Source: a virus. From it: DNA of 64,000 nt. The notes below the pieces were generated by a model. It worked only from the letters and a program-made list of their open reading frames with translations, did not search any database and was not told the DNA's origin. Shown piece by piece: positions 7,215-41,574 of this stretch; position 1 is the stretch's first letter; every line of letters starts with the position of its first letter. Where the stretch lies: the IMG/VR virus record IMGVR_UViG_3300022220_000003, positions 1 to 64,000 of that record. The stretch is one strand, 5' to 3'. A program made the translations under genes and the position numbers.

Positions 7215-7615
7215 TGCGGCAACTCAAATTTAGGAACACTCCCACCGATCCATTTTCGAAGGCCTCGGCGGACCCGAGCTCGTTTGGCAACTTGGCGATC
7301 TCGCGGGGGTGGGTGACCCAAAAGGACCTCGAGCAAGCTCTCGAGGTACAGCGCGCAAAGATACCTAAGCTAGGTCAGATCATGATCGAGATCGGATTGC
7401 TATCTGAAGAACAACGGGACGAAATACTGATCGAACAACGCCAAGCTCGAGGTCAAAAAATCCCCACCGAGGAGCTCTTGGTGTTTGAGCGGCGCAAGAT
7501 GAGGCGACGGCTCGAGGGGCTCAAAAATGGGTTTCGGGAGGCCACGAAGCACGCCAAGACCTTCGCCGAGGAGGTGACGGGTTTAACAGGGGAGCCCCTC
7601 GACTCGGCGGACTAG
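7214..7615 (+). CDS. Protein with GspE/MshEN N-terminal-like segment
   Basis: 133 residues. Residues about 23-75 (FGNLAISRGWVTQKDLEQAL.. LGQIMIEIGLLSEEQ) resemble the paired short-helix repeats of the GspE/PilB N-terminal (MshEN-like) domain: hydrophobic residue, then G, then two helices with an LxxxQ pattern. Some such domains bind cyclic di-GMP, but the specific binding residues cannot be verified here. The C-terminus is basic and helical. The last 33 bases overlap the convergent integrase gene. Confidence 0.55.
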   Translation: MRQLKFRNTPTDPFSKASADPSSFGNLAISRGWVTQKDLEQALEVQRAKIPKLGQIMIEIGLLSEEQRDEILIEQRQARGQKIPTEELLVFERRKMRRRLEGLKNGFREATKHAKTFAEEVTGLTGEPLDSAD

Positions 7616-8197
7616 ATCTTCGTCCGATAGCTCGGTGTAGATCGACGTCGTAACCACGTTGTTGTGACGTGCAAACCGCTGTACGGCCTTGATACATCGA
7701 TCCTTACGGTACAGGTTGGTGCAAGCGGTGTGCCGCAACGCGTGGAAATTATACAGCCGTTCGAAGCCCGCCTTGGCTTGCCAATCCCGAAACATGGCCC
7801 GCATGCGGCGGGTGGATAACCGGCGGTGGTTGCGGCTGACAAACAAGGGAGCCGAGCTCTCGAGGCTCTCGCCGCGATCTTTTTTCCAAACCAGATACCG
7901 GTTGATCTTATGACGCAGTGTGCTATTTAAAACAACCTCTTGGCGGGCGGGGTTGTCGGTGCACGTTTTGAACACGCGGAGCTCTACCCGGCGGCGGGCG
8001 TTGCCGTTGCCGTTGGTGACGTCTCCCACGTCGAGGGCGGCGATCTCGGACTCACGCAAGCCCGTACCGAGGGCCAAGCTAAAAACCATGTGATCCCGGT
8101 AGCCTTTGGCGTGTTGACCGGTGACGTCGAGCAGGGCCACCTGCTCGGCCTCGGATAGCGTTTTCGGCGGGAGACCTCGGCGGGCGTAATGGGTCAT
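7583..8197 (-). CDS. int: Short tyrosine recombinase (integrase)
   Basis: 204 residues, essentially the catalytic domain alone. Motifs in order: TGLRESEIAAL (first Arg), HALRHTACTNL (HxxR), RFARHNN (second His box) and TSIYTEL (nucleophile Tyr about residue 189). It would catalyse site-specific integration or excision. It lacks the N-terminal SAM-like core-binding domain of typical phage integrases of 300-400 residues, so it may be a minimal recombinase for resolution or inversion. AAAGGAG precedes the ATG, and a near-consensus promoter lies upstream. No attP with clear arm sites was found beside it. Confidence 0.85.
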   Translation of the reverse strand: MTHYARRGLPPKTLSEAEQVALLDVTGQHAKGYRDHMVFSLALGTGLRESEIAALDVGDVTNGNGNARRRVELRVFKTCTDNPARQEVVLNSTLRHKINRYLVWKKDRGESLESSAPLFVSRNHRRLSTRRMRAMFRDWQAKAGFERLYNFHALRHTACTNLYRKDRCIKAVQRFARHNNVVTTSIYTELSDEDLVRRVEGLPC

Positions 8198-13073: not shown

Positions 13074-13312
13074 GTGATCGCAAACACCAACTTGCAATAG
13101 AGGCGGCGCAACTGGCCAAGGTGATCGAGCTATTCGAGGGGCAGATGGCCGATTTTAAACAGAAGTATTGGGCCAAGGTGTGCGAGATCCACAGCCTCGA
13201 GAAGGACCTCGGGCGTTGTCCTACCATGACCGAGTTTGCCGTGAGAGCACCAAATCCTGAGGACATTTTGTCGGATAGCCAAGGAAGGGCGGTGACCAAT
13301 GATGGCACGTGA
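13070..13312 (+). CDS. Hypothetical helical protein
   Basis: 80 residues from the ATG at 13070 (ATGA overlap); a longer in-frame extension into the upstream gene was rejected. Helical, charged, no family recognised. Confidence 0.6.
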   Translation: MSDRKHQLAIEAAQLAKVIELFEGQMADFKQKYWAKVCEIHSLEKDLGRCPTMTEFAVRAPNPEDILSDSQGRAVTNDGT

Positions 13313-13751
13313 CGCGTTTGACGATTTGCGACGGTTGAGCCGGGCGGTTGAACGAGGCGACGATCAGACGGTTGACGATCTTACCGATACCTTGCCCGAT
13401 CTCGTGGCCGCGCTCGAGCGGGTCTTTGGCCCCGAGGGCCCGCCGGTGGTGGCGATTGAAAGCCCCTACGCCGGGGACGTCGAGGCCAACACCCGGTTTG
13501 CTCGGGAATGCCTGCTCGACTCGTTAACCCGCGGGGAGGCCCCGTTTGCTGGTCACCTGCTTTATACTCAAGTCTTGGCCGATCTGAAACCAACCGAGCG
13601 GGAGCTCGGGATCCTGTCCCATTTGGCCTACGTGCGGAGGTCCGAGCGGGTGGTGGTGTATGAGGATCTCGGGATATCGAGCGGGATGCAACGGGCGATC
13701 GACTTCGTCACCAAGCTCGGTATCCCTATCGAAAGGCGGTGGTTGTATTGA
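13299..13751 (+). CDS. DUF4406/DUF7768-like protein, nucleoside deoxyribosyltransferase fold
   Basis: 150 residues. From residue about 50 the sequence matches a common phage family: VAIESPYAGDVEANTRFAREC, DSLTRGEAPFAGHLLYTQ, VVVYEDLGISSGM and GIPIERRWL. These proteins are related in fold to nucleoside 2-deoxyribosyltransferases and may act in nucleotide metabolism or salvage; the reaction is unproven. Residues 1-45 form an extra helical N-terminus. ATG ATG at 13299/13302 are alternative starts. Confidence 0.75.
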   Translation: MMARDAFDDLRRLSRAVERGDDQTVDDLTDTLPDLVAALERVFGPEGPPVVAIESPYAGDVEANTRFARECLLDSLTRGEAPFAGHLLYTQVLADLKPTERELGILSHLAYVRRSERVVVYEDLGISSGMQRAIDFVTKLGIPIERRWLY

Positions 13752-15604: not shown

Positions 15605-15840
15605 GACGTGACCGAGTCAACGTGCGACGGCTCTCGTTTGGGGAGGTGCTCGGAATTTTTCTGGTCAAACGACAGCTCACACCGTGGGAGCTCGCCGAGC
15701 TCGTGGGGTGGCCTGTAACTAGGATTTACGCTCTCGAGCGCAACGAGGAAACTGCACCCCCAACCAAGGCCGAGGCCGAGGAGCTCGCCGAGGCCCTCGA
15801 CATAAACCCAAAACTTTTGACTGTAGCGGTGCCGAAATGA
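15601..15840 (+). CDS. XRE-family helix-turn-helix regulator
   Basis: 79 residues. LSFGEVLGIFLVKRQLTPWELAELVGWPVTRIYALERN is a Cro/CI-type HTH, followed by the usual LAEALDINPKLL helix. It is a single-domain DNA-binding protein that could act as Cro-like repressor for a nearby operator. ATGA overlap with the downstream gene. Confidence 0.8.
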   Translation: MRRDRVNVRRLSFGEVLGIFLVKRQLTPWELAELVGWPVTRIYALERNEETAPPTKAEAEELAEALDINPKLLTVAVPK

Positions 15841-16196: not shown

Positions 16197-16893
16197 GTGG
16201 ACGTGTACACACTGCCAGCACCGGTGGGCGAGTGATTCCCCGGCGGCGTATTGGTGCCCGAGTTGCGGGGCTCCAAAGGTCTACCCTCAACCCCCGTTTA
16301 TCGCGCTCGAGGGGATTGACGGGTGTGGCAAGGGCGTGCAGTCGAGGAGGCTCGCCGAGGACCTCCGCGGGGTGCGGTTTTCGTTTCCTGATTACAACAC
16401 CCCGATCGGGGGCCTAGTCGGTGCCCACTTGCGGCGGGAGTGGGCGGCCCATAGGTTGGATTGCGGCGACGATTCCAACGTTAAATACCACGATGAGGCC
16501 TTGATTTTCCAAGCCCTGCAATCGGCCAACCGGTTGGAGTGGGCCCACAAGATCGCCACCCACTTGGCCGAGGGATGCCCGGTGGTGGCGGATCGATACT
16601 ACGCCAGCGGCCTCGTTTACGGGTCGGCGGACGGGATCGCCTTCGAATACCTCGAGCGGCTCCACCGGTATCTACCGCAACCAACCCACTGGATCTTGAT
16701 CGATATCGACGTCGAGACCTCAATGGAGCGGCGGCCCGAGGGTCGAGACCGCTACGAGGCCGACGCCGAGTTTATGCGGGAGGTGTGCCTACGGTATCGG
16801 CAGCTCTGGATCCGCAACAAATGGCCGATCGTTGACGGCCGGGGCTCGGTGGATGACGTGGCGAGCCAGATCCATGAGGTGGTGATGGCATGA
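16189..16893 (+). CDS. tmk: Thymidylate kinase with N-terminal zinc ribbon
   Basis: 234 residues from GTG at 16189. Residues 6-26 form a zinc ribbon (CTHC...WCPSC). The rest is a thymidylate kinase, ATP + dTMP to ADP + dTDP: P-loop ALEGIDGCGKGVQS, the dTMP-binding ADRYYASGLVYG (the DR[YF] motif), DIDVETSMERR, and the LID-like RRPEGRDRYEADA. The P-loop lacks the usual Ser/Thr after GK (GKG), which may weaken ATP binding or mark a variant. It complements ThyX at 41571 for dTTP supply. The zinc-ribbon fusion is unusual. Confidence 0.85.
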   Translation: MNRWTCTHCQHRWASDSPAAYWCPSCGAPKVYPQPPFIALEGIDGCGKGVQSRRLAEDLRGVRFSFPDYNTPIGGLVGAHLRREWAAHRLDCGDDSNVKYHDEALIFQALQSANRLEWAHKIATHLAEGCPVVADRYYASGLVYGSADGIAFEYLERLHRYLPQPTHWILIDIDVETSMERRPEGRDRYEADAEFMREVCLRYRQLWIRNKWPIVDGRGSVDDVASQIHEVVMA

Positions 16894-19314: not shown

Positions 19315-19642
19315 CCTCGGTCCTCTCGAGGCGGACCTCACGGGACTCAAGGTCGAGGCGGATCCGGTTGATCCCCTCCTCACCCATCCAACCAAAAATC
19401 GAGTCAAGGCGGGTCTCGAGCTCGCCTTGGGGCTCGGCCACCGGGTGCATCATTACCACCTCGGAGCTGCTCTGCTCGGTGAGCTCTTGGCGGAGCTGCA
19501 CCATAACGTTGTGCCCTATCCCACTTTTAAATTTTTTCGTGACCGCGTTGGTGATCTCGGTGCCCGTTTTGCCCTCGCGGAGCATCTCGCGGGCCAGATT
19601 CTTTTTTTGTTCTGCTACTTTGAGGATCTTGTCTCGTGTCAT
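19301..19642 (-). CDS. Hypothetical protein with HTH-like segment
   Basis: 113 residues from the ATG at 19642. EMLREGKTGTEITNAVTKKFKSGIGHN could be a helix-turn-helix; the C-terminus is helical and charged. The upstream sequence ATACGTAGTAGGCATGAC is a diverged form of the ATACTAAGTATGCATGAC start region found at 24-36 kb. Its first 19 bp of leader plus 5' coding sequence (56 bp in all, 19605-19660) recur exactly, inverted, at 24756-24811. Confidence 0.6.
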   Translation of the reverse strand: MTRDKILKVAEQKKNLAREMLREGKTGTEITNAVTKKFKSGIGHNVMVQLRQELTEQSSSEVVMMHPVAEPQGELETRLDSIFGWMGEEGINRIRLDLESREVRLERTEVIRC

Positions 19643-19660
19643 GCCTACTACGTATTCAAT
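19605..19660 (-). repeat. 56-bp repeat, copy 1 (inverted match at 24756-24811)
   Basis: The start region of the 19642 gene. Identical over 56 bp to the plus strand at 24756-24811, 5 kb away, so the copies are in opposite orientation. Confidence 0.85.
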
Positions 19661-19900: not shown

Positions 19901-19909
19901 CCCCGAGGT

Positions 19910-19953
19910 GCCCGGTCCAAAAATTTTGTTTTTGGCCGGGCCCTTTTTTTTTT
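19910..19953 (+). terminator. Strong Rho-independent terminator
   Basis: Thirteen-bp stem (GCCCGG, one bulged T, CCAAAAA paired with TTTTTGG CCGGGC), loop 19924-19928, followed by a run of ten T. It would end plus-strand transcription entering the partition region. Confidence 0.8.
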
Positions 19954-20035
19954 ATGGCCCTTGCCTACCTACCCGCACACCTCTGATCATACTACCCCAC
20001 CACCCTACCGATATTGTGTTACTATCATAGTGGTA

Positions 20036-20331
20036 TGATACCGGTATGGCTGTGGGGCGATGCAGGTGTGGAGGTGCCACCGGTATCATACCATTACCAT
20101 ACCGGTATGGCGGCGAGGTGGCCGCGGTATCATGCCGGGGTAGTGTTGGGGTGGTGTTGACGCCCCACCGGTATGGCGGCGAGGTGGCCGCGGTATCATG
20201 CCGGGGTGGTGTTGACGCCCCACCGGTATGGTGGCGGTATCATGCCGGGGTGGTGTTGACGCCCCACCGGTATGGCGGCGATATCATGCCGGGGTGGTGT
20301 TGGGGTGGTGTTGGAGCTCCACCGGTATGGT
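20036..20331. repeat. Helically phased repeat array before parA (centromere candidate)
   Basis: ACCGGTAT[GG/CA] starts at 20040, 20079, 20101, 20167, 20222, 20266 and 20321. From 20079 on the intervals are 22, 66, 55, 44 and 55, all multiples of 11. A second motif, GGTATCATGCC, starts at 20126, 20192 and 20236, with a one-base variant at 20280 (intervals 66, 44, 44). The array ends 13 bases before the parA -35 box. Sites on one face of the helix next to parA and a small RHH-like gene are the expected architecture of a type Ib-like partition centromere and autoregulatory operator. Related motifs recur singly near 29276 and 31290. Confidence 0.8.
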
Positions 20332-20343
20332 GGAGATACGGTG

Positions 20344-20372
20344 TTGACTTTATAGCCATGTCGCACTAATAC
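20344..20372 (+). promoter_or_regulatory. parA promoter, near consensus
   Basis: TTGACT (20344-20349), a 17-base spacer, TAATAC (20367-20372), nine bases, ATG at 20382. The leader is at most two or three bases. The adjacent array suggests autorepression by the partition proteins. Confidence 0.8.
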
Positions 20373-20381
20373 ACAGCCACT

Positions 20382-21026
20382 ATGGCTACAATACTATTCG
20401 GCGGATACAAGGGTGGGACGGGCAAATCGACCCTCGCCACCAACTACGCGGTTTATTTGGCCCGGGCGGGGCGGGACGTCCTACTCGTGGACACAGACAA
20501 ACAAGGCTCGGCTGACGGGTGGGCGGCGATGCGGGGGGCCGAGGCCGAGCTACCCCGGGTCCACTGTGTACAAAAATTTGCGGACGTGGCCGGGGCGGTG
20601 CGAGACCTCGTTGGCCGCTACGATGAGATCGTGATCGATGCGGGTGGGCGTGACTCCCGCGAGCTCCGATCGGCAATGCTCGTGGCCAACGCTCTATACG
20701 TGCCCCTCAAGGCCTCGCAATTCGACCTGTGGACAATGGACCAGGTTGATCAAATGGTGAACGATGCCCGCGGATTCAACCCCGAGCTCGAGGCGTGGGC
20801 GGTGGTATCGATGGCGCCAACCAACCCGCAGATCCGAGAGACCGCGGAGGCCCGCGAGCTCTTGGCCGAGTTTGGCAACGTGCGGCTGATGTCTGCCACG
20901 ATCTGTGAGCGCAAGGCCTACCGGGAGGCCACCGCCACCGGCCGGGGGGTGCTCGAGCTCAATAACACCAAGGCCGCGGCCGAGCTCGAGGCGTTTGGCG
21001 AGGAGGTGGCCCGTGGCTTACAGTAG
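20382..21026 (+). CDS. parA: ParA-type partition ATPase
   Basis: 214 residues. Deviant Walker A KGGTGKST (residues 10-17) with the signature Lys, VDTDKQGSAD (switch I) and EIVIDAGGRD (Walker B region). Its size, with no N-terminal HTH, fits type Ib plasmid ParA or phage ParA. It would position DNA through ATP-dependent nucleoid binding, with the downstream small protein as adaptor. Presence of a partition locus suggests the prophage can persist as a plasmid. Confidence 0.92.
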   Translation: MATILFGGYKGGTGKSTLATNYAVYLARAGRDVLLVDTDKQGSADGWAAMRGAEAELPRVHCVQKFADVAGAVRDLVGRYDEIVIDAGGRDSRELRSAMLVANALYVPLKASQFDLWTMDQVDQMVNDARGFNPELEAWAVVSMAPTNPQIRETAEARELLAEFGNVRLMSATICERKAYREATATGRGVLELNNTKAAAELEAFGEEVARGLQ

Positions 21027-21273
21027 AAGGCCAACATCGGCCGAGGATTTTTTGGCGGAGGCCGAGGCCCCGGTGGTGGAGCTCTCGGCGGTGCGCATGC
21101 CGTGGGCCGAGCTCGACCCAAACGAGCGAGGCCACAATGTGTTTAACCTCAGGCTAAACGACCATGACCTCGCGATACTCCGCCACCTCGCCAGCGAAAA
21201 CGAGGACCTCAGTATGCAAAAGGTCGCCAAACGGATCCTTGTGCCAGAGCTGCGGCGGCGGGTAGGGTTATAG
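21013..21273 (+). CDS. Small ParB-like centromere-binding candidate
   Basis: 86 residues from GTG at 21013, with GAGGAGG upstream, overlapping parA by 14 bases. Acidic N-terminus, then HNVFNLRLNDHDLAILRHLASENEDLSMQKVAKRILVPELRR, which fits a ribbon-helix-helix (strand, helix, helix) like small ParB/ParG/Omega proteins. By context it should bind the phased array at 20036-20331. A parAB terminator follows. Confidence 0.7.
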   Translation: MAYSRRPTSAEDFLAEAEAPVVELSAVRMPWAELDPNERGHNVFNLRLNDHDLAILRHLASENEDLSMQKVAKRILVPELRRRVGL

Positions 21274-21275
21274 AC

Positions 21276-21350
21276 GGGCACCCCCGCGGATCTCCGAAGG
21301 ATACGCATGGGACCGGACATGGCCGGTCCGCGGTGGGTGCCTTTTGTTTT
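21276..21350 (+). terminator. Rho-independent terminator after the partition operon
   Basis: GGGCACCC (21277-21284) with CCGCGGA pairs with TCCGCGG and GGGTGCC (to 21341), with an inner ACCGG/CCGGT stem, then TTTTGTTTTG. Confidence 0.75.
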
Positions 21351-22316: not shown

Positions 22317-22590
22317 GCGGCTGATTATCGATGGCGAGGCGCAAGATCCACCACCGAATCACACCCGGGTGACCGGATATTGGGTCAAACACCTTTTTTG
22401 TGAGCTTCAACACGGGGACATATTTAGGTTGTGGGATGCGCCAGGTACCCCTGAGGCAATTACGCCTGTAGGGCAACACACGGTATACATAGCCCTTTGT
22501 GACGCTCACACCGAAGGTAATGATTGGGGCGTGGAAATGACACAAGTGCGGGGTATTGTGCCTAGACGGCGACTAGCCTCGAGCCTCTAA
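22300..22590 (+). CDS. Hypothetical protein, paralogue of 21772
   Basis: 96 residues. Shares RVTGxW, GDIFR and a VRGI/VRGF ending with the gene at 21772. Its last four bases overlap the convergent radical SAM gene. Confidence 0.6.
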   Translation: MSRICERLIIDGEAQDPPPNHTRVTGYWVKHLFCELQHGDIFRLWDAPGTPEAITPVGQHTVYIALCDAHTEGNDWGVEMTQVRGIVPRRRLASSL

Positions 22591-23312
22591 AAAGCCCTCC
22601 GCGAGGCTAAAGCCCACCTCGTTTTTAAAAGTTGGGGGGGTAACCGGTCGTGCAGCCCGCACCGGTCGCAATCATGTGATAGGGTGGCCTCGGTGAGCTC
22701 GCGATCGGTGCTCCACATGGTACCAAGGGCAAAACAATCGGGGGATTCACCCGCTCGGATCGTCCCGTCAATGTCAATCGAGGGGGTGCAGAGCTTGCGC
22801 AACGATCGCAAAAACTCGACCCCAAGCACAAACGAGCCATACCAGTGGACGGCCGAGCGGAGGTTGTAGCACGCGGGGCCTATGCGGTTGCTCTCACCTT
22901 GCCACCGGCCGAGGCGGACCAGGGTAGGGATCTTGTAAACGTAGGCGACCTTGAGATCTTCGAGCTCCACCTCGGGGATCCGGCGGGGATAAAACCGGGG
23001 GTCATTGGTGATCTGCCACATGGCGGGAGCGGTGAGGAGCTCGGCGGTGCGGGCGGGGTCATGCAAAAACATTCCGTTAGACAACACCAACACCAACGGG
23101 GACCGATCGCAGGCCTCGGCGATTAGCTCGAGGATCAACGGGTGCTCGGTGGGTTCGCCACCGGAGATCATGACCACCGAATCACCAAGCTCGGTTGAGA
23201 CGTCAAGAGCTCGGCGGTAGGTCTCAAGGGTGATATGGGCGCCTTGGGGGGAGCTGCGGGCCAGGCAATGGCTGCAACTCATGGCGCATTGGGTGGTTAC
23301 CCTAACCAACAT
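22587..23312 (-). CDS. Radical SAM enzyme
   Basis: 241 residues from the ATG at 23312, set by a -10 box (TATAGG) six bases upstream; the longer ORF adds 28 residues with no coding character. CAMSCSHCLARS gives the CxxxCxxC [4Fe-4S] site and ISGGEPTEHP the SAM-binding GGEP motif. CDRCGLHD near the C-terminus and other Cys (GPACYNL, KLCTPS) could bind an auxiliary cluster. The reaction is unknown; no precursor peptide or partner enzyme is nearby. Confidence 0.85.
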   Translation of the reverse strand: MLVRVTTQCAMSCSHCLARSSPQGAHITLETYRRALDVSTELGDSVVMISGGEPTEHPLILELIAEACDRSPLVLVLSNGMFLHDPARTAELLTAPAMWQITNDPRFYPRRIPEVELEDLKVAYVYKIPTLVRLGRWQGESNRIGPACYNLRSAVHWYGSFVLGVEFLRSLRKLCTPSIDIDGTIRAGESPDCFALGTMWSTDRELTEATLSHDCDRCGLHDRLPPQLLKTRWALASRRAF

Positions 23313-23318
23313 GTACAC

Positions 23319-24388: not shown

Positions 24389-24982
24389 TCACATGGACGT
24401 ATACAAGCCCGTGGCCTCCTCGATCAGTGGGCGGAGCTGATCCCAATAGATCCCCTTGTGATCGGCGACCTCGGTGATCCGGTAGCCCGGGGCTCGGCCG
24501 ATTTTGAGGATCCGCAGATTGTACAGGTCCGCGCCTTGATCGAGCTCGATCATGATGGTGTTGGCTTTGGCCGAGCCTCGGATCCGAAACTGCAAGCCGT
24601 TGCCGAGGTCCAAGAGGTCCTTGGCCCCGAGCATAAACAAGGCGCCCTTGCCGAGCTGCGCAATGATGGTTTGGGCGATCTGAGGGTCGTTGGTCTTGGT
24701 GGTGATCATGGCGTTGTCCTTACCCGAGCGGGGGCAATTCGAGCTCGGCCTCGAGATTGAATACGTAGTAGGCATGACACGAGACAAGATCCTCAAAGTA
24801 GCAGAACAAAACTTGTGTAGTTTTCGGTTGAGCTCGTTGATCTCGGCCCAAATCTCGGACTTGCGGGGGTTACCAGGGCCACACAAGGGCGTACGGGGTA
24901 GGCGGTCCCACTCTTCAAAAAGCTCCTCGAGCCGGGCGTTGATTTCGTCGCGTGTCATGTCTTTGTCCTTGTTCGTGGTCAT
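24389..24982 (-). CDS. Fused ORF: small DEINARL-type protein plus conserved phage protein
   Basis: 197-codon open frame. Residues 1-57 (MTRDEINARLEELFEEWDRLPRTP.. ELNRKLHK) look like one small phage protein. Residues 58-91 are an antisense reading of the 56-bp repeat and junk. From Met92 (24709, AAGGA upstream) there is a complete 106-residue protein of a common phage/plasmid family (TIIAQLGKGALFMLGAKDLLDLGNGLQFRI... DQLRPLIEEATGLYTS). So a recombination event probably joined two genes, and translation may start at both 24982 and 24709. The 24982 start sits directly beside a palindromic promoter. Confidence 0.7.
   Translation of the reverse strand: MTTNKDKDMTRDEINARLEELFEEWDRLPRTPLCGPGNPRKSEIWAEINELNRKLHKFCSATLRILSRVMPTTYSISRPSSNCPRSGKDNAMITTKTNDPQIAQTIIAQLGKGALFMLGAKDLLDLGNGLQFRIRGSAKANTIMIELDQGADLYNLRILKIGRAPGYRITEVADHKGIYWDQLRPLIEEATGLYTSM
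24756..24811 (+). repeat. 56-bp repeat, copy 2 (inverted match at 19605-19660)
   Basis: An exact copy of the leader and first codons of the 19642 gene inserted, antisense, within the fused ORF at 24389-24982. It carries an ATG (MTRDKILKVAEQ) that runs on only briefly in a foreign frame. Confidence 0.85.
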
Positions 24983-25011
24983 GCATACTTAGTATGCAAC
25001 ACCGATGCCAG
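24983..25011 (-). promoter_or_regulatory. Composite promoter: -24/-12-like element plus 15-bp palindrome
   Basis: Palindrome 24983-24997 (GCATACTTAGTATGC read on plus). On the minus strand CTGGCAT, five bases, TTGCA (25011-24995) has GG and GC separated by ten bases as in sigma-54 promoters. The ATG of the minus gene (24982) touches the palindrome. Confidence 0.6.
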
Positions 25012-25071
25012 CTTGCCCCCACCGCAAAACCGCGTTAGACTAGGGATCCGAGCGATGGCTCGGGTTTAAAT

Positions 25072-25223
25072 TATGACATCAATGTCATAGCAAACTGGTA
25101 AAAAGCACTTGAACCTAAGCAAACCAAGCACTTACGCTATGACATTGATGTCATATTAAATACATCAAATCACAGGTTTTGCTAACGATTGCAGACGCTT
25201 AGAACTATGACACAAATGTCATA
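25072..25223. promoter_or_regulatory. Operator triplet A (TATGAC-N6-GTCATA x3), inverted orientation
   Basis: Palindromes at 25072-25089, 25138-25155 and 25206-25223; pitches 66 and 68 bases. The order 66 then 68, and the sequences between the sites read on the minus strand, show the cassette is inverted relative to B, C and D. It lies between two outward-facing composite promoters. Confidence 0.8.
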
Positions 25224-25302
25224 GGTAATCGGTGTTTTTCGGGTTTGACCCCTACAGTTGAGAGCTAACCCCTTGATCTTTGGTTGCGGCGGGGTCTAAA
25301 AA

Positions 25303-25331
25303 CCTGGCATTGGTGTTGCATACTAAGTATG
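25303..25331 (+). promoter_or_regulatory. Composite promoter before 25360
   Basis: CTGGCAT, five bases, TTGCA (25303-25319), GG to GC spacing ten; palindrome GCATACTAAGTATGC at 25317-25331. The gene follows after a 28-base leader containing GAGAGG. Confidence 0.6.
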
Positions 25332-25359
25332 CATAACCCAAACACGAGAGGCTGAGGCC

Positions 25360-27383: not shown

Positions 27384-27485
27384 GTTGGTGTCCTGTGGGT
27401 TGGGGTTTTTGTTCTCGATCCGGCCACCCTCTCGGCCCGTGTGGTTTGCCCTCGCCGCCCCGTGTGCTGCCTGGCTGCGTTGACT
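27384..27485 (-). promoter_or_regulatory. Conserved leader, copy 1
   Basis: Between the palindromic promoter and the 27383 start. It shares AGCACACG, ACACGGGCCGAGAG, GGCCGGAT-GAGA and a CCCA-AGGACACCAAC end with the leaders at 27858-27962 and 29606-29707. Such conservation over about 100 untranslated bases suggests a cis-acting RNA element. Confidence 0.55.
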
Positions 27486-27514
27486 GCATACTAAGTATGC
27501 ACGTTGGGTGCCAA
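27486..27514 (-). promoter_or_regulatory. Composite promoter for 27383
   Basis: Palindrome GCATACTAAGTATGC at 27486-27500; minus strand TTGGCAC, five bases, GTGCA (27514-27498), GG to GC spacing ten. Confidence 0.55.
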
Positions 27515-27614
27515 GTTTTTGGGGTCGTTTGGGGCGGGCGGGGAGCTCTCGCCACGAGAAAACAAGGGGTTAGACGCGGCCGGCGGCCTTGGTGGAGTGT
27601 GGGCCCAATACCTC

Positions 27615-27766
27615 TATGACTTAGCTGTCATAGTTGTACTTGGTTGATATTGCTAGAGAAACCGCTGATTTTGCGTATTTACTATGACAGATATGTCATA
27701 GGCTACTTGCTTGTTTTTGTTGAGCAAAGGCCGTTTTGAGTGGTTTGCTATGACTTAGATGTCATA
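27615..27766. promoter_or_regulatory. Operator triplet B
   Basis: TATGAC-N6-GTCATA at 27615-27632, 27683-27700 and 27749-27766; pitches 68 and 66. The sequences between the sites are conserved with triplets C and D (for example GTACTTG, GATATT, GATTTT-CGTATTTACTATGAC), making a cassette of about 260 bases from 27598 to 27857. Confidence 0.85.
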
Positions 27767-27828
27767 GGTACCGGTTGGGGGTTTGGGGCTCGGGCCCGTT
27801 CTATCGCGGGTTTGCGGGCGGTGCAAGG

Positions 27829-27857
27829 TTGGCACGGTGGGTGCATACTAAGTATAC
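27829..27857 (+). promoter_or_regulatory. Composite promoter for 27963
   Basis: TTGGCAC, five bases, GTGCA (27829-27845), GG to GC spacing ten; palindrome-like GCATACTAAGTATAC at 27843-27857. Confidence 0.55.
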
Positions 27858-27962
27858 AGTTGCGGCGGCCGGGGAGCACACGAGGACGCACCAACAACCG
27901 ACACGGGCCGAGAGCGGGGCCGGATCGAGACGCAAAACCAACCCCAACCCAAGGACACCAAC
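27858..27962 (+). promoter_or_regulatory. Conserved leader, copy 2
   Basis: Same elements as the minus-strand leader at 27384-27485 and the leader at 29606-29707, ending AAGGACACCAAC before the ATG. It contains the ribosome site AAGGA. Confidence 0.55.
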
Positions 27963-28250
27963 ATGACCAACAACAACACCAACACCGTAGCCCTTCACGT
28001 TGCCACCGAGGCCGAGCTCGATTCTCGGACGGTCGAGACGCGTTGGAGCGACCCAAGGACAGCCCGATGGCTAGGAGCTAGCCAAAAATGGCGGTTTGAG
28101 GGTGGTGACGCGATAGTGGTTTGCGGCCACTATCCCGAGGCGTGGGCCGTGGTTAGAGTCGAAGACCGGATCAAGGTCTGTGACATCAGCCGCGGCGGTG
28201 GTGTGGTCGGAGCGTTTGGTTATTTCGACCTCAGGGCCGAGGTAGCCTAG
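27963..28250 (+). CDS. Hypothetical accessory protein
   Basis: 95 residues. Asn/Thr-rich N-terminus, then a beta-rich domain (KWRFEGGDAIVVCGHYPEAWAVVRVED.. GAFGYFDLRAEVA). No family recognised. A single-gene transcription unit: composite promoter, conserved leader, terminator. Confidence 0.65.
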   Translation: MTNNNTNTVALHVATEAELDSRTVETRWSDPRTARWLGASQKWRFEGGDAIVVCGHYPEAWAVVRVEDRIKVCDISRGGGVVGAFGYFDLRAEVA

Positions 28251-29211: not shown

Positions 29212-29235
29212 TGTTTGCTCCTTGTTGCGTGTTAT

Positions 29236-29264
29236 GCATACTTAGTATGCAACACCGATGCTTA
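29236..29264 (-). promoter_or_regulatory. Composite promoter, degenerate -24 box
   Basis: Perfect palindrome GCATACTTAGTATGC (29236-29250) and TTGCA, but the -24 GG is AG (TAAGCAT). Followed only by a 19-codon ORF. A GGTATCATACCGGTAT motif like that of the par array lies at 29280-29295. Confidence 0.45.
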
Positions 29265-29364
29265 GTTTTGAGGTCATGCCGGTATCATACCGGTATAGTA
29301 TCAACCTGATATCAATAGGTTAGAGCCCGGCGGCGAGCTCGGAGGCGTGTAGGCCCAATACCTC

Positions 29365-29516
29365 TATGACTTAGCTGTCATAGTTGTACTTGCCTGATAT
29401 TGCTTAGGAAACCGCTGATTTTACGTATTTACTATGACATGGCTGTCATAGCGTAAGGGTTTGTTTTTGTTTGTGAACGAGGATATTTGTCGATACGCTA
29501 TGACAACCGAGTCATA
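29365..29516. promoter_or_regulatory. Operator triplet C
   Basis: Sites at 29365-29382, 29433-29450 and 29499-29516; pitches 68 and 66. The cassette 29349-29605 aligns along its length with 27598-27857 and 31350-31612. Confidence 0.85.
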
Positions 29517-29576
29517 GTCCACGGACCACCCGCAGGCTATAACCTTATTTTATCGCGGGTTTGCGGCGGCGGCAAG

Positions 29577-29605
29577 TTGGCATTGGTGTTGCATACTAAG
29601 TATGC
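29577..29605 (+). promoter_or_regulatory. Composite promoter for 29708
   Basis: TTGGCAT, five bases, TTGCA (29577-29593); palindrome GCATACTAAGTATGC 29591-29605. Conserved leader copy 3 follows (29606-29707). Confidence 0.6.
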
Positions 29606-29707
29606 AGTTAACGCAGTCGAGCAGCACATGGGACGGCGTTGGCAACCGACACGGGCCGAGAGCGGGGCCGGACTGAGACAACCAACCCAAACCCAAAGGA
29701 CACCACC
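29606..29707 (+). promoter_or_regulatory. Conserved leader, copy 3
   Basis: About 100 bases sharing AGCACA-G, CCGACACGGGCCGAGAG, GGGGCCGGA and AAAGGACACCACC with the leaders at 27384-27485 and 27858-27962. The genes behind the three leaders are unrelated, so the leader is conserved independently of the coding sequence. Confidence 0.55.
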
Positions 29708-30959: not shown

Positions 30960-31231
30960 CGGTAGGGTAGGCCGCGGGCCTTATTGATGGCCCGAGTTGC
31001 GAGCCTACGCAATTGGGATCCTAGGTGATAATAGTTGTTGACCGATCCGGCCTCGCGATACCGCTGGCCCCGATCGGAGATCCGCAACACGAGGGCGCCG
31101 GTGGTGTGCACATAAATGTGCCCGTCAAAGGCCTCAACAACGCGATATTCTTGGCCCCTCGCGTTGAACGTGGCCGAGGCGGTAAAGAGGGGAAGTTGAG
31201 CAAAGTTGGTGTCTGTGTTCGTTGTGGTCAT
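30956..31231 (-). CDS. Hypothetical accessory protein, start at a palindromic promoter
   Basis: 91 residues. The ATG at 31231 directly abuts the palindrome 31232-31246, so no ribosome site is possible. Domain: YRVVEAFDGHIYVHTTGALVLRISDRGQ..  beta-rich, then a basic helix (LRRLATRAINKARG). Unknown. Confidence 0.65.
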   Translation of the reverse strand: MTTTNTDTNFAQLPLFTASATFNARGQEYRVVEAFDGHIYVHTTGALVLRISDRGQRYREAGSVNNYYHLGSQLRRLATRAINKARGLPYR

Positions 31232-31260
31232 GCATACTTAGTATGCAACACCGGTGCCAG
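31232..31260 (-). promoter_or_regulatory. Composite promoter for 31231
   Basis: Palindrome 31232-31246; minus strand CTGGCAC, CGGTG, TTGCA (31260-31244), a full match to the sigma-54 consensus core. A TGATACCGGTATGATACC motif like the par array lies at 31289-31306. Confidence 0.65.
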
Positions 31261-31371
31261 GTTTTCTGAGGTATTGGGGCCGTATTGGGGTGATACCGGT
31301 ATGATACCACGCCTAAAATCAAGCACTTGCGGCCGGCGGGAGAGCTCGGAGGTGTGTGGGTGCAATACCTC

Positions 31372-31523
31372 TATGACTTAGGTGTCATAGTTGTACTTGG
31401 TTGATATTACTAGGGAAACCGGTGATTTTACGTATTTACTATGACATTAAAGTCATAGGCTACTTGGTTGTTTTTGTTGAGCAAAGGGCGTTTTCGGTGG
31501 TTTGCTATGACATAAATGTCAGG
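31372..31523. promoter_or_regulatory. Operator triplet D
   Basis: Sites at 31372-31389, 31440-31457 and 31506-31523 (the last ends GTCAGG instead of GTCATA); pitches 68 and 66. Confidence 0.85.
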
Positions 31524-31583
31524 GTTGGTTATTGGGCCGTTGGCTTCGAGCCTAGTTTATCGGGTGTTTGCGGGCCTGGCAAG

Positions 31584-31612
31584 TTGGCACCGGTGTTGCA
31601 TACTAAGTATGC
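31584..31612 (+). promoter_or_regulatory. Composite promoter for 31613
   Basis: TTGGCAC, CGGTG, TTGCA (31584-31600); palindrome GCATACTAAGTATGC (31598-31612), then ATG at once. Symmetric in design with 31232-31260, with triplet D between the two outward units. Confidence 0.65.
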
Positions 31613-32263
31613 ATGACCAACACGAACAAAACCACCGCCACCTACGAGAGCGCCCGGCAACTAGTCGCCACCCTCCGCGGGGAGCTCGAGCAGCTCACCT
31701 TGTTGCCCTCCGACACCCTCGAGATCTGCGATCAGTTGGTTGCTCGTGTCGAGCTCGCCAAGGCGCGGGCGGATAGCGCGCCTAGCGATATCGTGAAGTT
31801 TTCGCGGCCCGAGCCCGAGAGCGTGCTCGAGCGTGAAAAGGCGGCGGCCCGCCGGGCGGGTGCGGCGGCGGTGGTTGAGGACGCCAAGGCCAAGGCCGAG
31901 TTTCTGGCCAAGACTGCAGTCAAGGGCCCTCGCAACCCCGTGCACTTGGTTGAGGTCGAGGAGGGCCACCACGTTGACGTGATCCCCCGCAAGTCGATTC
32001 GTCTGCACGGCTTGGACCGCAACCGCCGCAACGGCCCGGTGGCCTACGATCGGACCTTCGAGATCGGCGACTCGGCCGAATACGACAGCTATAACACCTC
32101 ATTTATCGGCCGGATCGTGGCCATCGGCGCCAAGACCGTGACGATTGACACCAAGATGGGTGAGCGGCGGCGATTGAAGCTCGAGCAGTTCTCGTGGCGC
32201 AACCGCCACTTTGACCTTGAGACCGTGGCCCGCCGCAACGCCGAGGAAAGTTATTACATCTAA
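31613..32263 (+). CDS. Hypothetical protein of a phage/plasmid accessory family
   Basis: 216 residues, ATG abutting the palindromic promoter. N-terminal helix (LVATLRGELEQLTLLP); Ala/Lys-rich coiled coil in the middle; C-terminal beta domain (FEIGDSAEYDSYNTSFIGRIVAIGAKTVTI) with an FDLETVARRN tail. Such a C-terminal domain is common in phage and megaplasmid proteins of unknown function. First gene of a four- to five-gene unit. Confidence 0.7.
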   Translation: MTNTNKTTATYESARQLVATLRGELEQLTLLPSDTLEICDQLVARVELAKARADSAPSDIVKFSRPEPESVLEREKAAARRAGAAAVVEDAKAKAEFLAKTAVKGPRNPVHLVEVEEGHHVDVIPRKSIRLHGLDRNRRNGPVAYDRTFEIGDSAEYDSYNTSFIGRIVAIGAKTVTIDTKMGERRRLKLEQFSWRNRHFDLETVARRNAEESYYI

Positions 32264-36202: not shown

Positions 36203-36334
36203 TCAGAGCACCACCGCGGCGGCGGCCTCGTTGCGGGCGGCGAGCTTGGGGCGGCGGGTGCCCTCGCCACCGACAACCAAGACCACAATCGCGACCACCG
36301 CGATAACTGCCTTGATTGTCTTGTTGCGTGTCAT
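36203..36334 (-). CDS. 43-residue membrane peptide behind a palindromic promoter
   Basis: The ATG at 36334 abuts the palindrome 36335-36349. One membrane helix (IKAVIAVVAIVVLVVGG) and a basic tail. Leaderless first gene of the unit with 35844. Confidence 0.6.
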   Translation of the reverse strand: MTRNKTIKAVIAVVAIVVLVVGGEGTRRPKLAARNEAAAAVVL

Positions 36335-36363
36335 GCATACTTAGTATACAACAACCGTGCCAG
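36335..36363 (-). promoter_or_regulatory. Composite promoter for 36334
   Basis: Palindrome with one change (GCATACTTAGTATAC, 36335-36349); minus strand CTGGCAC, five bases, TTGTA (36363-36347), so the -12 GC is GT here. Confidence 0.5.
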
Positions 36364-36485
36364 AGCTCGGGGGTGGCACGGCGGGTGCAACTCGAGGAGG
36401 GCGACACAATATCAAGGGGTTACGGGCCGAGAGCTCCCCGCCGAGCTCCCCGAGGGCCGTGTTTAGCGTGTAGGGCCAATACCTC

Positions 36486-36659
36486 TATGACTTAGGTGTC
36501 ATAGTTGAGATTAGGGGCTAACTACTCGTAATGAGGGCGAAAATGCCAATTGGTACTAGACTACTATGGCAATCATGTCATAGTTGAGGATTGGGCTAAC
36601 TGCACGTAATAGCGAAAGAATCCTAGGTTAGACCGATTTACTATGGCATCTATGTCATA
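36486..36659. promoter_or_regulatory. Operator triplet E, stretched by one helical turn per step
   Basis: Sites at 36486-36503, 36565-36582 and 36642-36659; pitches 79 and 77, exactly 11 more than the 68 and 66 of B-D. Two sites begin TATGGC instead of TATGAC. Confidence 0.8.
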
Positions 36660-36733
36660 GCTATGATGCTCTGCGTTATCAAGGTGATTGGCCTAAGTGC
36701 TTGATATTGTGTTGAGAGCTCCTCGCCACGGTA

Positions 36734-36762
36734 TTGGCATCAGGGTTGCATACTAAGTATGC
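36734..36762 (+). promoter_or_regulatory. Composite promoter for 36763
   Basis: TTGGCAT, five bases, TTGCA (36734-36750); palindrome 36748-36762, then ATG at once. Confidence 0.6.
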
Positions 36763-37134
36763 ATGAGCACAACGAGAGGAAACGAGACAATGAACGCAAT
36801 CACCACCGAGATCAAGTTTGCCAAGGCTGAGATGGCCGCGATTAACTTCCAAGGTGCAGGCCCCGAGCTTGGACGACGTTTTTGTCACCTCCGCCGGTTG
36901 GTTAAGCTGCTCAAGGAGCTCGATCGGCTCAACGGGTTGGGACTCGCCGAGCTCGTCACGGTTGAATACGAGTCCGAGGACGTCCCTAGCACATGTGTTG
37001 TTTTTTGGGCGAACACTGATGCCACGGCCGATATCGTGGGCAAACGCTCGGGCCAAGAAGTTGCGCGGCTTTCATCGCGTGAATTCTTTATCGAGCTCTC
37101 GTTGGCCCCCGGGCGTATGCCTGGTTTCTTTTAG
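36763..37134 (+). CDS. Accessory protein, paralogue of 29708
   Basis: 123 residues if started at the abutting ATG; ATG 36790 with GAGAGG upstream is an alternative. Shares LRRxxxxLKELD and VEYESEDVPxT with 29708. Function unknown. Confidence 0.65.
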   Translation: MSTTRGNETMNAITTEIKFAKAEMAAINFQGAGPELGRRFCHLRRLVKLLKELDRLNGLGLAELVTVEYESEDVPSTCVVFWANTDATADIVGKRSGQEVARLSSREFFIELSLAPGRMPGFF

Positions 37135-38450: not shown

Positions 38451-40931
38451 GTGCCAAGGGACCTAACCCTGCTCGTGTGGGGTGACATCAAATCGGGTGA
38501 TCCCAACCAAGGTAACCTGGTGACTGCACCTTGGGTTGACTGGGTTAGCGTGCTATCCACCCACGTACGCAGGTCAACCAAAGGGGGTCCGTGCGTTGTC
38601 TGCGGTCACATCCCCAAAGGTAAACCCCGTTTGCAAATCCACGTCGAGGCCACCGACACGGTGTGCCTTGATATCGATAAGGGTACCACCGAGGAGATCG
38701 GCGAGATCCTCGAGGCCTTTGCCCCGTATGAATACGTGGCCTATACGAGCTTTAGCCATGCTCGATATCAGCTCGGTACCAAGGACACCCCACCGGCCCC
38801 CGGTGAGCCGACACAAACCAAGCTGCGGGTGTTGCTACCCCTAGCCCGTCGAGTAAGTGCCAAAGAATATGAGGGGGTTTGGCCGGTGATCCAGCAGTTG
38901 GCCAAGCACCCAATCGACAAGGCAATCAAGGCTCTCAACCAAGGGTACTATTTACCGAGCGCCAGGGTCGGGGCCCCGACCCTGGCCCACCACAACAAAA
39001 CCGGCCGGTGGCTCGACCCTGACAACCTCTTGCAGCTCTCGGACACCCCCGCCGAGACCTCCACCGAGCTCCCCACCGTCGAGGTTTTGGGCCGGGTCGA
39101 GACAATTATCCGCAAGCTCGCCAAAATGATACGCTCGCACCCCCTCAAGGCGGCGGCCAATGCCTTGATCAACGGCGAGCCCCTGGACTTCGGTGATGGT
39201 CGCCACGATACGATTATCCGGTTGACGGGTTGGATCGCGTTCAAAACCGAGAACAAACCTCTGCACCCAAGCGTAATCGAGGCCTTGTTCCAACGGTCGA
39301 TTGACGCAATGCGTCTTGATCGACCTCATGACATGGCATCGGTGACCATCGACGCCGCCACCGCAGCCTACGAAACCGCAATCGCCAAGGCGATTGAGAT
39401 CAAGGAGGCCGAGCGTAAGGAGGCCCAAAGTCATTACGCCGGCCCGGAGTCACCCGAGTGGCCCAAAGAAACCCTCGAGCGGTGCGCCGAGGCTCAAGAA
39501 TCCACCGTCGAGCAACTCGCGTTTGTTGTGGTGCGAGACCGGGCGCACTACATCCTACAACCGGACACCTATTTTTGCGGTCCGTTCACTGAAAAGGACG
39601 CGTTTATTGAAATCATTCAAGCTTTGGGGCGATCCCCGGTGGAGCTTTACGAGGTCACCAACTCAGGCAACTATAAACCAAGGCCATTTTTTGAGCTGAT
39701 ACGCCGATATGGCAGGGTAGCTCAACAAGTGGTCGCAAACCTCGCAACCCAACGGACCTATTACGATCGCGAGCACCGCACGATCCATGAGGCCGTTTGC
39801 CCTCGCCGCACCTTCGAGCCGGTTCACAACCCAAAAATAGACCATTGGTTGCGCCTATTCGCGGGCACGCCTGCCAATTACGAGAAGCTCCTCGATTGGA
39901 TGGCCTGTTGCCCCGATCTTAACAAGTTACTTTGCGCCCTCACCTTGGCGGGAGCTCCTGGCACCGGTAAAACCTTGTTTGCCCAAGGCATGGCCAGCCT
40001 ATGGGCCGAGGGTGGAGCGGCGGCGAGCCCCGAGGTGATCCTCGGTAACTTTAACGAGGACCTAACCCGATGCCCCCTCGTATTCGCCGATGAGACCCTG
40101 CCGAAAACCTACCGGTGGGAGTCGGTGACAACCAAGCTACGGGCCGAGATTGCCTCCTTGGTGCGCACCCTCAACCGCAAGTATTACGCCCCCTTAACCC
40201 TACAAGGGAGCCTCCGTTTTATCCTGGCGACCAACAACCCGATGATTCTCGCCAGCAACATCAGCACCGCGGCGGATCTCAACGCGGTGGCGGTGCGATT
40301 TCTCTACCTCGAGACCGGGGCCGAGGCCGAACAGTACTTGCTCACCCTGGACCACGAGACAAAGGACGGCTGGCGTATACACCAAATCGCGGCTCACGCC
40401 CTTTGGCTCCAACAAAACCGAGCGGTGACCCCCGCGGGCCGTTTTTGGGTCACCGGCGATCTCGAAAAAATGCACCGCCTACTCGTGACCTCATCGGATT
40501 GGAATAGTTGGGTTTGCGAGTGGATCGTCAAGGGGCTGCTAGACGGCTATCGCAAGGCGGAGCAAAACCAAGACACGGTGGGCCGGGTGATAGTCCAGGA
40601 GGGCCACCTCTTTGTCAATATCAGTGCAGTCGCAGATGGTTGGCCCATATACACCAACTATCCCAATATCCCCCCCGACCCGCGCAAGATCGCCACGGCC
40701 CTCCGCTCGATCTCCCTGCAACCCAAGGCCGTCCAAGTTCGCACCCCCGGCGGGACGCGGCACCGCTACTTTGACATTGACCTAAACCACCTCGTGGCGT
40801 GGGCGGATGAGAAGGGGATCTGCGGAGCACCCGAGATCGAGCTCGCAATCCACCAAGGAATCACCGAGCGGCCCAAGATCGTCAATCTGAACGAGCACCG
40901 GAACAAAGGAAAGGATCAGCCACAGCAATGA
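38451..40931 (+). CDS. Primase-helicase, D5/DUF5906-like
   Basis: 826 residues from GTG. An N-terminal primase-type domain carries CLDIDKG (catalytic acidic pair, residues 74-76), TSFSHAR and KLRVLLPLAR. A linker follows, then an SF3/D5-like helicase domain with Walker A AGAPGTGKT near residue 505, LVFADETLP and FILATNNPM (sensor). It unwinds DNA and lays primers at the phage fork. The start follows GGGGGTGA. Downstream lies a shortened paralogue of its helicase part. Confidence 0.85.
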   Translation: MPRDLTLLVWGDIKSGDPNQGNLVTAPWVDWVSVLSTHVRRSTKGGPCVVCGHIPKGKPRLQIHVEATDTVCLDIDKGTTEEIGEILEAFAPYEYVAYTSFSHARYQLGTKDTPPAPGEPTQTKLRVLLPLARRVSAKEYEGVWPVIQQLAKHPIDKAIKALNQGYYLPSARVGAPTLAHHNKTGRWLDPDNLLQLSDTPAETSTELPTVEVLGRVETIIRKLAKMIRSHPLKAAANALINGEPLDFGDGRHDTIIRLTGWIAFKTENKPLHPSVIEALFQRSIDAMRLDRPHDMASVTIDAATAAYETAIAKAIEIKEAERKEAQSHYAGPESPEWPKETLERCAEAQESTVEQLAFVVVRDRAHYILQPDTYFCGPFTEKDAFIEIIQALGRSPVELYEVTNSGNYKPRPFFELIRRYGRVAQQVVANLATQRTYYDREHRTIHEAVCPRRTFEPVHNPKIDHWLRLFAGTPANYEKLLDWMACCPDLNKLLCALTLAGAPGTGKTLFAQGMASLWAEGGAAASPEVILGNFNEDLTRCPLVFADETLPKTYRWESVTTKLRAEIASLVRTLNRKYYAPLTLQGSLRFILATNNPMILASNISTAADLNAVAVRFLYLETGAEAEQYLLTLDHETKDGWRIHQIAAHALWLQQNRAVTPAGRFWVTGDLEKMHRLLVTSSDWNSWVCEWIVKGLLDGYRKAEQNQDTVGRVIVQEGHLFVNISAVADGWPIYTNYPNIPPDPRKIATALRSISLQPKAVQVRTPGGTRHRYFDIDLNHLVAWADEKGICGAPEIELAIHQGITERPKIVNLNEHRNKGKDQPQQ

Positions 40932-40971: not shown

Positions 40972-41574
40972 ATGAATCAATCCATAAACCAATGGCTTCG
41001 CCTATTGGCGGGCAATGACGACAATCACCAAAAACTCCTCGATTGGTTGGCTTGTGCCCCCAATCTGGACACGCCTTTATGTGGCCTGATTTTTGCGGGC
41101 CCACCGAAAACGAGCAAGGGTCTGTTTTTGGCGTTTGTGGCGGGGTTGCGGGAAATTTGGAACGGCTGGCGCAGTATGCCCAATAATGACACCCCTATCC
41201 TGGTCTACCGAGACGATCCCAAGGCCCTGAGCACTATCGACCCCATAACCCTAGATGCCTACCCCCGGCGGCGTTTCGTGGTCGCCACCAACACCCCCGA
41301 GATCATGTTGGCCCATGTTCACGAGCGGACACCGTTAGAACAGCTCGAGCGGTGGTTTTTGTACATGGAACCCACCGAGGAGGCGGCCGAGCTCCTCGAG
41401 GGATTCGAAGATTATCACCCGGTGTGGGGTGTGCGCCATATCACGACAGCTATCGAGACCTTGCACCAGTATCACAAGGTGGAGCGGGCCGGGCATCTAT
41501 GGGTTGAGGGTACCCCGGGCGCCATGCGCCACCTCACAACCCAACCACCTAAAGCCGTAGGGGTGACCCCATGA
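40972..41574 (+). CDS. Stand-alone helicase-domain paralogue with broken Walker A
   Basis: 200 residues. QWLRLLAGNDDNHQKLLDWLACAPNLDTPLCGLIFAGPPKTSKG aligns with the preceding primase-helicase (HWLRLFAGTPANYEKLLDWMACCPDLNKLLCALTLAGAPGTGKT). The P-loop GAPGTGKT has become GPPKTSKG, losing the last Gly and the Thr that coordinates Mg. Walker B is also weak. The sensor-like VVATNTPEIML is kept. It likely cannot hydrolyse ATP and may regulate or poison the helicase ring. The stop overlaps thyX. Confidence 0.75.
   Translation: MNQSINQWLRLLAGNDDNHQKLLDWLACAPNLDTPLCGLIFAGPPKTSKGLFLAFVAGLREIWNGWRSMPNNDTPILVYRDDPKALSTIDPITLDAYPRRRFVVATNTPEIMLAHVHERTPLEQLERWFLYMEPTEEAAELLEGFEDYHPVWGVRHITTAIETLHQYHKVERAGHLWVEGTPGAMRHLTTQPPKAVGVTP

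Follow-up and report, generated by a model that had tools for sequence, protein, structure and literature searches.

A probable type Ib partition locus with a long 11-bp-phased array in an uncultivated bacterial virus

Results

The parA locus and its genes

The window analysed here covers positions 1 to 64,000 of a 93,466-bp record of an uncultivated bacterial virus. It carries a compact locus with the order terminator, array, promoter, parA, partner, terminator (Table 1). Both genes that the original prediction placed downstream of the array, parA and a small gene, are present.

Table 1. Features of the parA locus and related elements in the window (positions are those of the window)
Feature	Position	Strand	Description
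Tyrosine recombinase	7583-8197	-	204 aa, catalytic domain only, XerA/XerD-like
Rho-independent terminator	19905..19955	+	fold of -26.1 kcal/mol followed by ten T; upstream of the array, predicted to insulate it from the methyltransferase side
Isolated dyad GGTATGATACCGGTATG	20032..20048	.	a pair of GGTAT half-sites spaced 11 bp, not in phase with the array; contains the 16-mer GGTATSATACCGGTAT
Phased array	20079..20353	.	25 consecutive 11-bp units, consensus RCCGGTATGGT; proposed centromere and operator
Candidate promoter TTGACT-17-TAATAC	20344..20372	+	TTGACT at 20344-20349, TAATAC at 20367-20372; weak match
parA	20382..21026	+	214 aa, ParF-like Walker ATPase without N-terminal HTH
Partner (parB-like)	21013..21273	+	86 aa, flexible N-terminus and predicted ribbon-helix-helix-type C-terminus; 14-bp overlap with parA
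Operon-closing terminator	21276..21345	+	fold of -40.0 kcal/mol followed by TTTTGTTTTG
Secondary site GGTATCATACCGGTAT with weaker phased units	29276..29318	.	exact 16-mer; inside repeated segment C
Secondary site GTGATACCGGTATGATACC	31287..31308	.	exact 16-mer on the - strand; inside repeated segment D
Regulatory segments A-E	24975-25345, 27480-27970, 29215-29640, 31215-31625, 36315-36800		five diverged copies, about 69-81% similar over the parts that align

ParA has a deviant Walker A motif, KGGTGKST, at residues 10-17, and matches CbiA (1.9e-13), the PHROG ParA-like family (3e-41) and the ParF structure 4dzz in the PDB (1.8e-14). ParF of TP228 is the nearest solved structure, and the match spans the full length of the protein. 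Plasmid-borne relatives are 45-53% identical and come from Allochromatium pALVIN01 (53%), Methylococcales, Nitrosococcus, Burkholderiaceae and Acinetobacter; the closest named phage ParA is that of the P1-like phage-plasmid D6 (42%). A search of viral contigs for close relatives of ParA found none. Against the NCBIfam equivalog model NF041546 (ParA family partition ATPase) the protein scores 150.8 bits over nearly the whole model, below the curated cut-off of 180, and we regard it as a relative, not a filed member, of that family.

The partner is 41.8% identical (E 5e-6) to the protein encoded immediately behind parA on plasmid pALVIN01. When four plasmid partners and that of the window are combined into a profile, it matches the small gene that follows parA in many viral relatives. 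In most relatives, phage-plasmid D6 included, parA has behind it a small gene that overlaps or adjoins it. The partner sequence alone gives no significant ribbon-helix-helix (RHH) match, and ParG (Pfam PF09274) is not among its Pfam matches up to E = 1. A profile of 22 partners encoded beside related viral parA genes does lead to the RHH proteins CopG, Mnt, MazE-type and Arc in the PDB, and some members of the family match RHH_1 or RHH_3 in Pfam. Since the fold predicted from the single sequence was poor (pLDDT 52.6), it was replaced by a model made from the 22-partner alignment (pLDDT 81), in which two helices (pLDDT above 90) follow an extended segment. The best matches to the C-terminus of this model are the RHH domains of NikR, ParD and SvtR, with Z about 5 (5.2) and Foldseek E above 1. 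The partner thus appears to have an RHH fold, recognised through its relatives together with a modest structural match.

The type Ib class is defined by a ParA of 192-308 aa that lacks the HTH, a ParB of 46-131 aa with an RHH fold, and a centromere upstream of the operon, which the partner represses (PMC3235114, PMC5016525). The window has the corresponding elements: a 214-aa ParA without N-terminal HTH, an 86-aa partner right after parA, and repeats upstream at the promoter.

An array of 11-bp units

The original prediction described two sets of motifs. The positions and spacings given for the first, ACCGGTAT at 20079, 20101, 20167, 20222, 20266 and 20321 (22, 66, 55, 44 and 55 bp apart), are all correct. 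The positions and spacings of the second, GGTATCATGCC at 20126, 20192, 20236 and 20280 (66, 44 and 44 bp), also hold, except that the copy at 20280 reads GATATCATGCC, with one mismatch. A description as some 25 consecutive 11-bp units suits the region better: when it is written in rows of 11, the fourth position is G in 24 of the 25. Every forward half-site GGTAT falls in phase 3 and every reverse half-site ATRCC in phase 9; the two thus make up dyads of the form GGTATSATRCC on one face of the helix.

Base identity summed over lags 11-66 between 20079 and 20342 amounts to 678, as compared with a mean of 387.7 (sd 15.8, maximum 459) in 5000 shuffles, and the autocorrelation at lags 11, 22, 33, 44, 55 and 66 reaches z of 5.9-9.3. 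Across the 93,466-bp record, where the median of the lag-identity statistic is 352, the top windows all overlap the array. The array is real, and all sequence criteria show it to be under selection. One more ACCGGTAT, the seventh, lies at 20040, 39 bp ahead of the first array copy and not in phase with it; it is part of a perfect dyad of its own, GGTATGATACCGGTAT, located at 20032. An open reading frame (20046-20369) runs through the array; a protein-coding reading was dropped, since 11 is not divisible by 3 and DNA sites account for the array.

At its downstream end the array runs into the candidate promoter, whose -35 box sits within the last unit, in register, and whose -10 box is followed by the parA ATG after 9 bp. 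This promoter had been called near-perfect; it has 8 of the 12 consensus bases (5/6 and 3/6), falls below the threshold of the scanner, and is of a quality encountered once per 253 bp on the + strand. Should it be real, a protein bound to the array would shut it off, and the transcript would have little or no leader.

Helical spacing upstream of parA in relatives

Periodicity was scored over the 350 bp preceding parA in a non-redundant set of 76 loci, of which the window is one, with 448 windows from these loci as controls; a period was counted when its score was 4 or more. Period 11 was found in 10 of the 76 upstream regions and in 1 of the 448 controls; the corresponding figures are 6/76 and 0/448 for period 8, and 6/76 and 2/448 for period 10. 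The window's array has the highest score of all (17.8, the next being 8.7). The units differ in sequence among relatives: GGTGYNWWWT in D6, TTTTGATTGCA in loci L046 and L051, and CTACCAAA in L067, whose partner is homologous to that of the window. Unit positions stay in phase as the sequence diverges. Because period 11 recurs upstream of parA with unrelated unit sequences, we argue for selection on spacing: a common spacing without a common sequence is as expected if what counts is which face of the helix the RHH dimers occupy. What recurs upstream of this ParA group is the helical spacing (11, 10 or 8 bp) and not the unit sequence, and this could aid the finding of centromeres from raw sequence.

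Sites away from the array

The window contains three exact copies of the 16-mer GGTATSATACCGGTAT (20032, 29281 and 31293), where 0.37 matches are expected even with three mismatches allowed. At both distant sites the half-sites are 11 bp apart. When the whole record is scanned with a phased six-unit profile, the array scores 59.2, followed by 29256, at the first of these two sites, with 17.8 and then by 3.9.

Both sites lie in a family of five repeated segments of 280-400 bp between 24975 and 36800, which are of a divergent-promoter type. The segments contain CTATGAC-N6-GTCATAG dyads, two or three of them, at intervals of about 66-68 bp, and have GCATACTWAGTATGC palindromes at their ends, several directly upstream of start codons (e.g. 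genes 24982-, 31231- and 31613+). Together they look like a phage regulon with its own regulator. Since copies of the 16-mer sit in these segments, the partition protein may also regulate phage genes. Dispersed partition-protein sites are found in pSM19035, whose omega regulates other promoters as well, and in pMF1 (PMC5016525, PMC3235114). We put forward only tentatively that the RHH protein doubles as a phage-wide regulator, with predicted binding both to the 25-unit centromere and to two-unit operators 9-11 kb away (29281 and 31293); another protein could own the latter two sites. If the idea is right, formation of the partition complex, and hence copy number, would be coupled to the expression of phage accessory genes.

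The phage and its relatives

A rough gene call gives 129 genes. Virion and replication-type matches include a terminase, a DNA polymerase, a primase/helicase, an exonuclease and a tail-fibre-like gene, so that virion genes and a plasmid-type parAB locus occur together. The primase/helicase-like gene (38475-40931) is repeated in part by the downstream gene 40972-41574 (31% over 223 aa), a partial duplication. ThyX is also encoded, along with radical-SAM-like (22587-23318, - strand), thymidylate-kinase-like (16372-16893) and nucleoside deoxyribosyltransferase-like (13299-13751) genes; the four possibly serve modified-nucleotide metabolism. A 56-bp stretch recurs inverted with 100% identity at 19605-19660 and 24756-24811, near the start of one minus-strand gene and inside another. 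A search of Rfam gave no match, and end repeats, looked for in the record, were not found.

One relative, G001 (78,781 bp; terminase 82% identical), is collinear with the phage over most of its genome and circularly permuted. Its contig starts at the equivalent of window position ~37.5 kb and ends ~70 bp before the expected start of the array, just after a terminator-like stem that it shares with the window. The contig start (L023:1-190) consists of six copies of a 30-bp tandem repeat, GGTCGACCCACGTCGAGGCCAACCGTCGGA, which may well explain why the assembly broke there. In eight other terminase-related phage records, which have mainly the virion block in common with the window phage, both parA and the partner are missing, and the partition locus therefore looks like an accessory in this phage group. 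No terminase relative turned up in the genome collection, and no host prophage or episome was found there.

The maintenance locus had been proposed to stand alongside an integrase. The recombinase in question is 74% identical to its counterpart in G001 and has no clear counterpart in eight other well-covered relatives. Short XerD-like recombinases of a similar kind are found in the Thermus phages P23-45 and P74-26, which are lytic. Given these relatives and the presence of the catalytic domain only, the gene is no evidence of integration; it could equally serve dimer resolution. A Cro/CI-like HTH_3 gene at 15622-15840, conserved in G001, is a candidate lysogeny regulator.

Discussion

A proposed partition mechanism

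We consider it highly likely that the locus is a type Ib partition system of a large tailed phage, with the array as its centromere and operator. The 86-aa partner would act as an RHH dimer that binds GGTAT-type half-sites. The 11-bp repeat would place these sites on nearly one face of the DNA, and dimers could then sit next to one another over some 25 units, forming one continuous protein-DNA filament, the partition complex. Such a filament would show the flexible N-terminal tails of the partner to ParA-ATP on the host nucleoid, which in turn would move sister genomes apart. With the -35 box of the parA promoter held in the last units, a filled array would repress parA-parB.

The pairing of a centromere with autoregulation had been part of the original prediction. 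It fits the type Ib operon, the RHH-type partner, the array ending inside the promoter and the 11-bp phasing upstream of parA in relatives; binding of the array by the partner, repression of the promoter and extrachromosomal persistence we infer from sequence. Plasmid-like maintenance is the likeliest purpose of the locus, and an episomal lifestyle is probable, judging from the partition locus itself and its relatives on plasmids and phage-plasmids. Against this reading counts that a search for plasmid replication initiators of the Rep_3 and TrfA families gave no match, which leaves room for another initiator or an RNA-based origin. This would suggest at least one plasmid-like member within an uncultivated group of roughly 95-kb environmental phages.

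Alternative readings

The array might instead be mainly a transcriptional operator, through which the RHH protein regulates parA-parB and other promoters, while ParA positions, for example, the genome or the capsid in a phage that has no plasmid-like inheritance. In its favour, the 16-mer has two more exact copies at a distance from parA, within the repeated divergent-promoter segments; parA is absent from structural relatives of the phage; and the replication and virion genes of the phage resemble those of a self-sufficient one. However, about 25 units far exceed what repression needs, and the closest relatives of ParA sit on low-copy plasmids and phage-plasmids; we judge this account unlikely. 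Phased repeats near a small regulatory gene also make up iteron replication origins, which the array could be, with the partner or some other protein as initiator. Here, though, the array is 64% GC, above the genome, with an AT-rich stretch beside it only on the promoter side, its neighbours encode ParA and an RHH-type protein, and a search for plasmid replication initiators covering two families, Rep_3 and TrfA, found none, all of which makes an origin very improbable.

It is harder still to credit that the phasing is a functionless by-product of recent tandem duplication by slippage of 44-66-bp blocks. Blocks of 44, 55 and 66 bp within the array are clearly duplicated, yet their lengths vary while all remaining multiples of 11, the half-sites stay in phase throughout, and the parA genes of relatives are preceded by unrelated arrays that share the 11-bp period.

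Comparison with known partition systems

The type Ib systems ParFGH of TP228, delta-omega of pSM19035, pTAR and pMF1 share with the phage locus a small ParA without HTH, a small RHH partner (in the phage, a probable one) and promoter-overlapping repeats upstream of parA. They differ in that the phage partner falls outside Pfam's ParG family. The sites of omega are heptads, from which the array departs in both unit sequence and its 11-bp spacing. The 8-bp repeats reported for pP62BP1 (PMC3346939) likewise differ from its 11-bp units.

The plasmid pALVIN01 and those of Methylococcales and Nitrosococcus encode ParA proteins 50-53% identical to that of the phage and a homologous partner, but have an upstream period of 5/10 bp, where any is seen, in place of 11. 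Escherichia phage D6 resembles the window in its ParA (42% identical), in the small gene that follows and in an 11-bp-phased upstream region; its units read GGTGYNWWWT and are fewer (periodicity score 6.6 versus 17.8). Mycobacteriophage RedRock parABS has directly repeated parS units, 8-bp repeats at two sites, stabilises plasmids and is found in a phage without integrase (PMC7157519). RedRock and, in all likelihood, the window carry phage partition cassettes with direct repeats, of 8 bp at two sites in the former.

In ParMRC of plasmid R1, a type II system, 11-bp repeats around the promoter are bound by the RHH protein ParR (PMC9426499, and Dam and Gerdes as cited there). The motor of R1 is the actin-like ParM, whereas that of the phage is a Walker ParA, which places the phage locus outside type II. 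Repeats upstream of type Ib operons are already known as well (PMC5016525). With both the 11-bp RHH repeats of R1 and the upstream repeats of type Ib on record, the array is best seen as a very regular new case of a known type, and as an unusually regular and long centromere candidate it would lend itself to testing how RHH partition complexes assemble.
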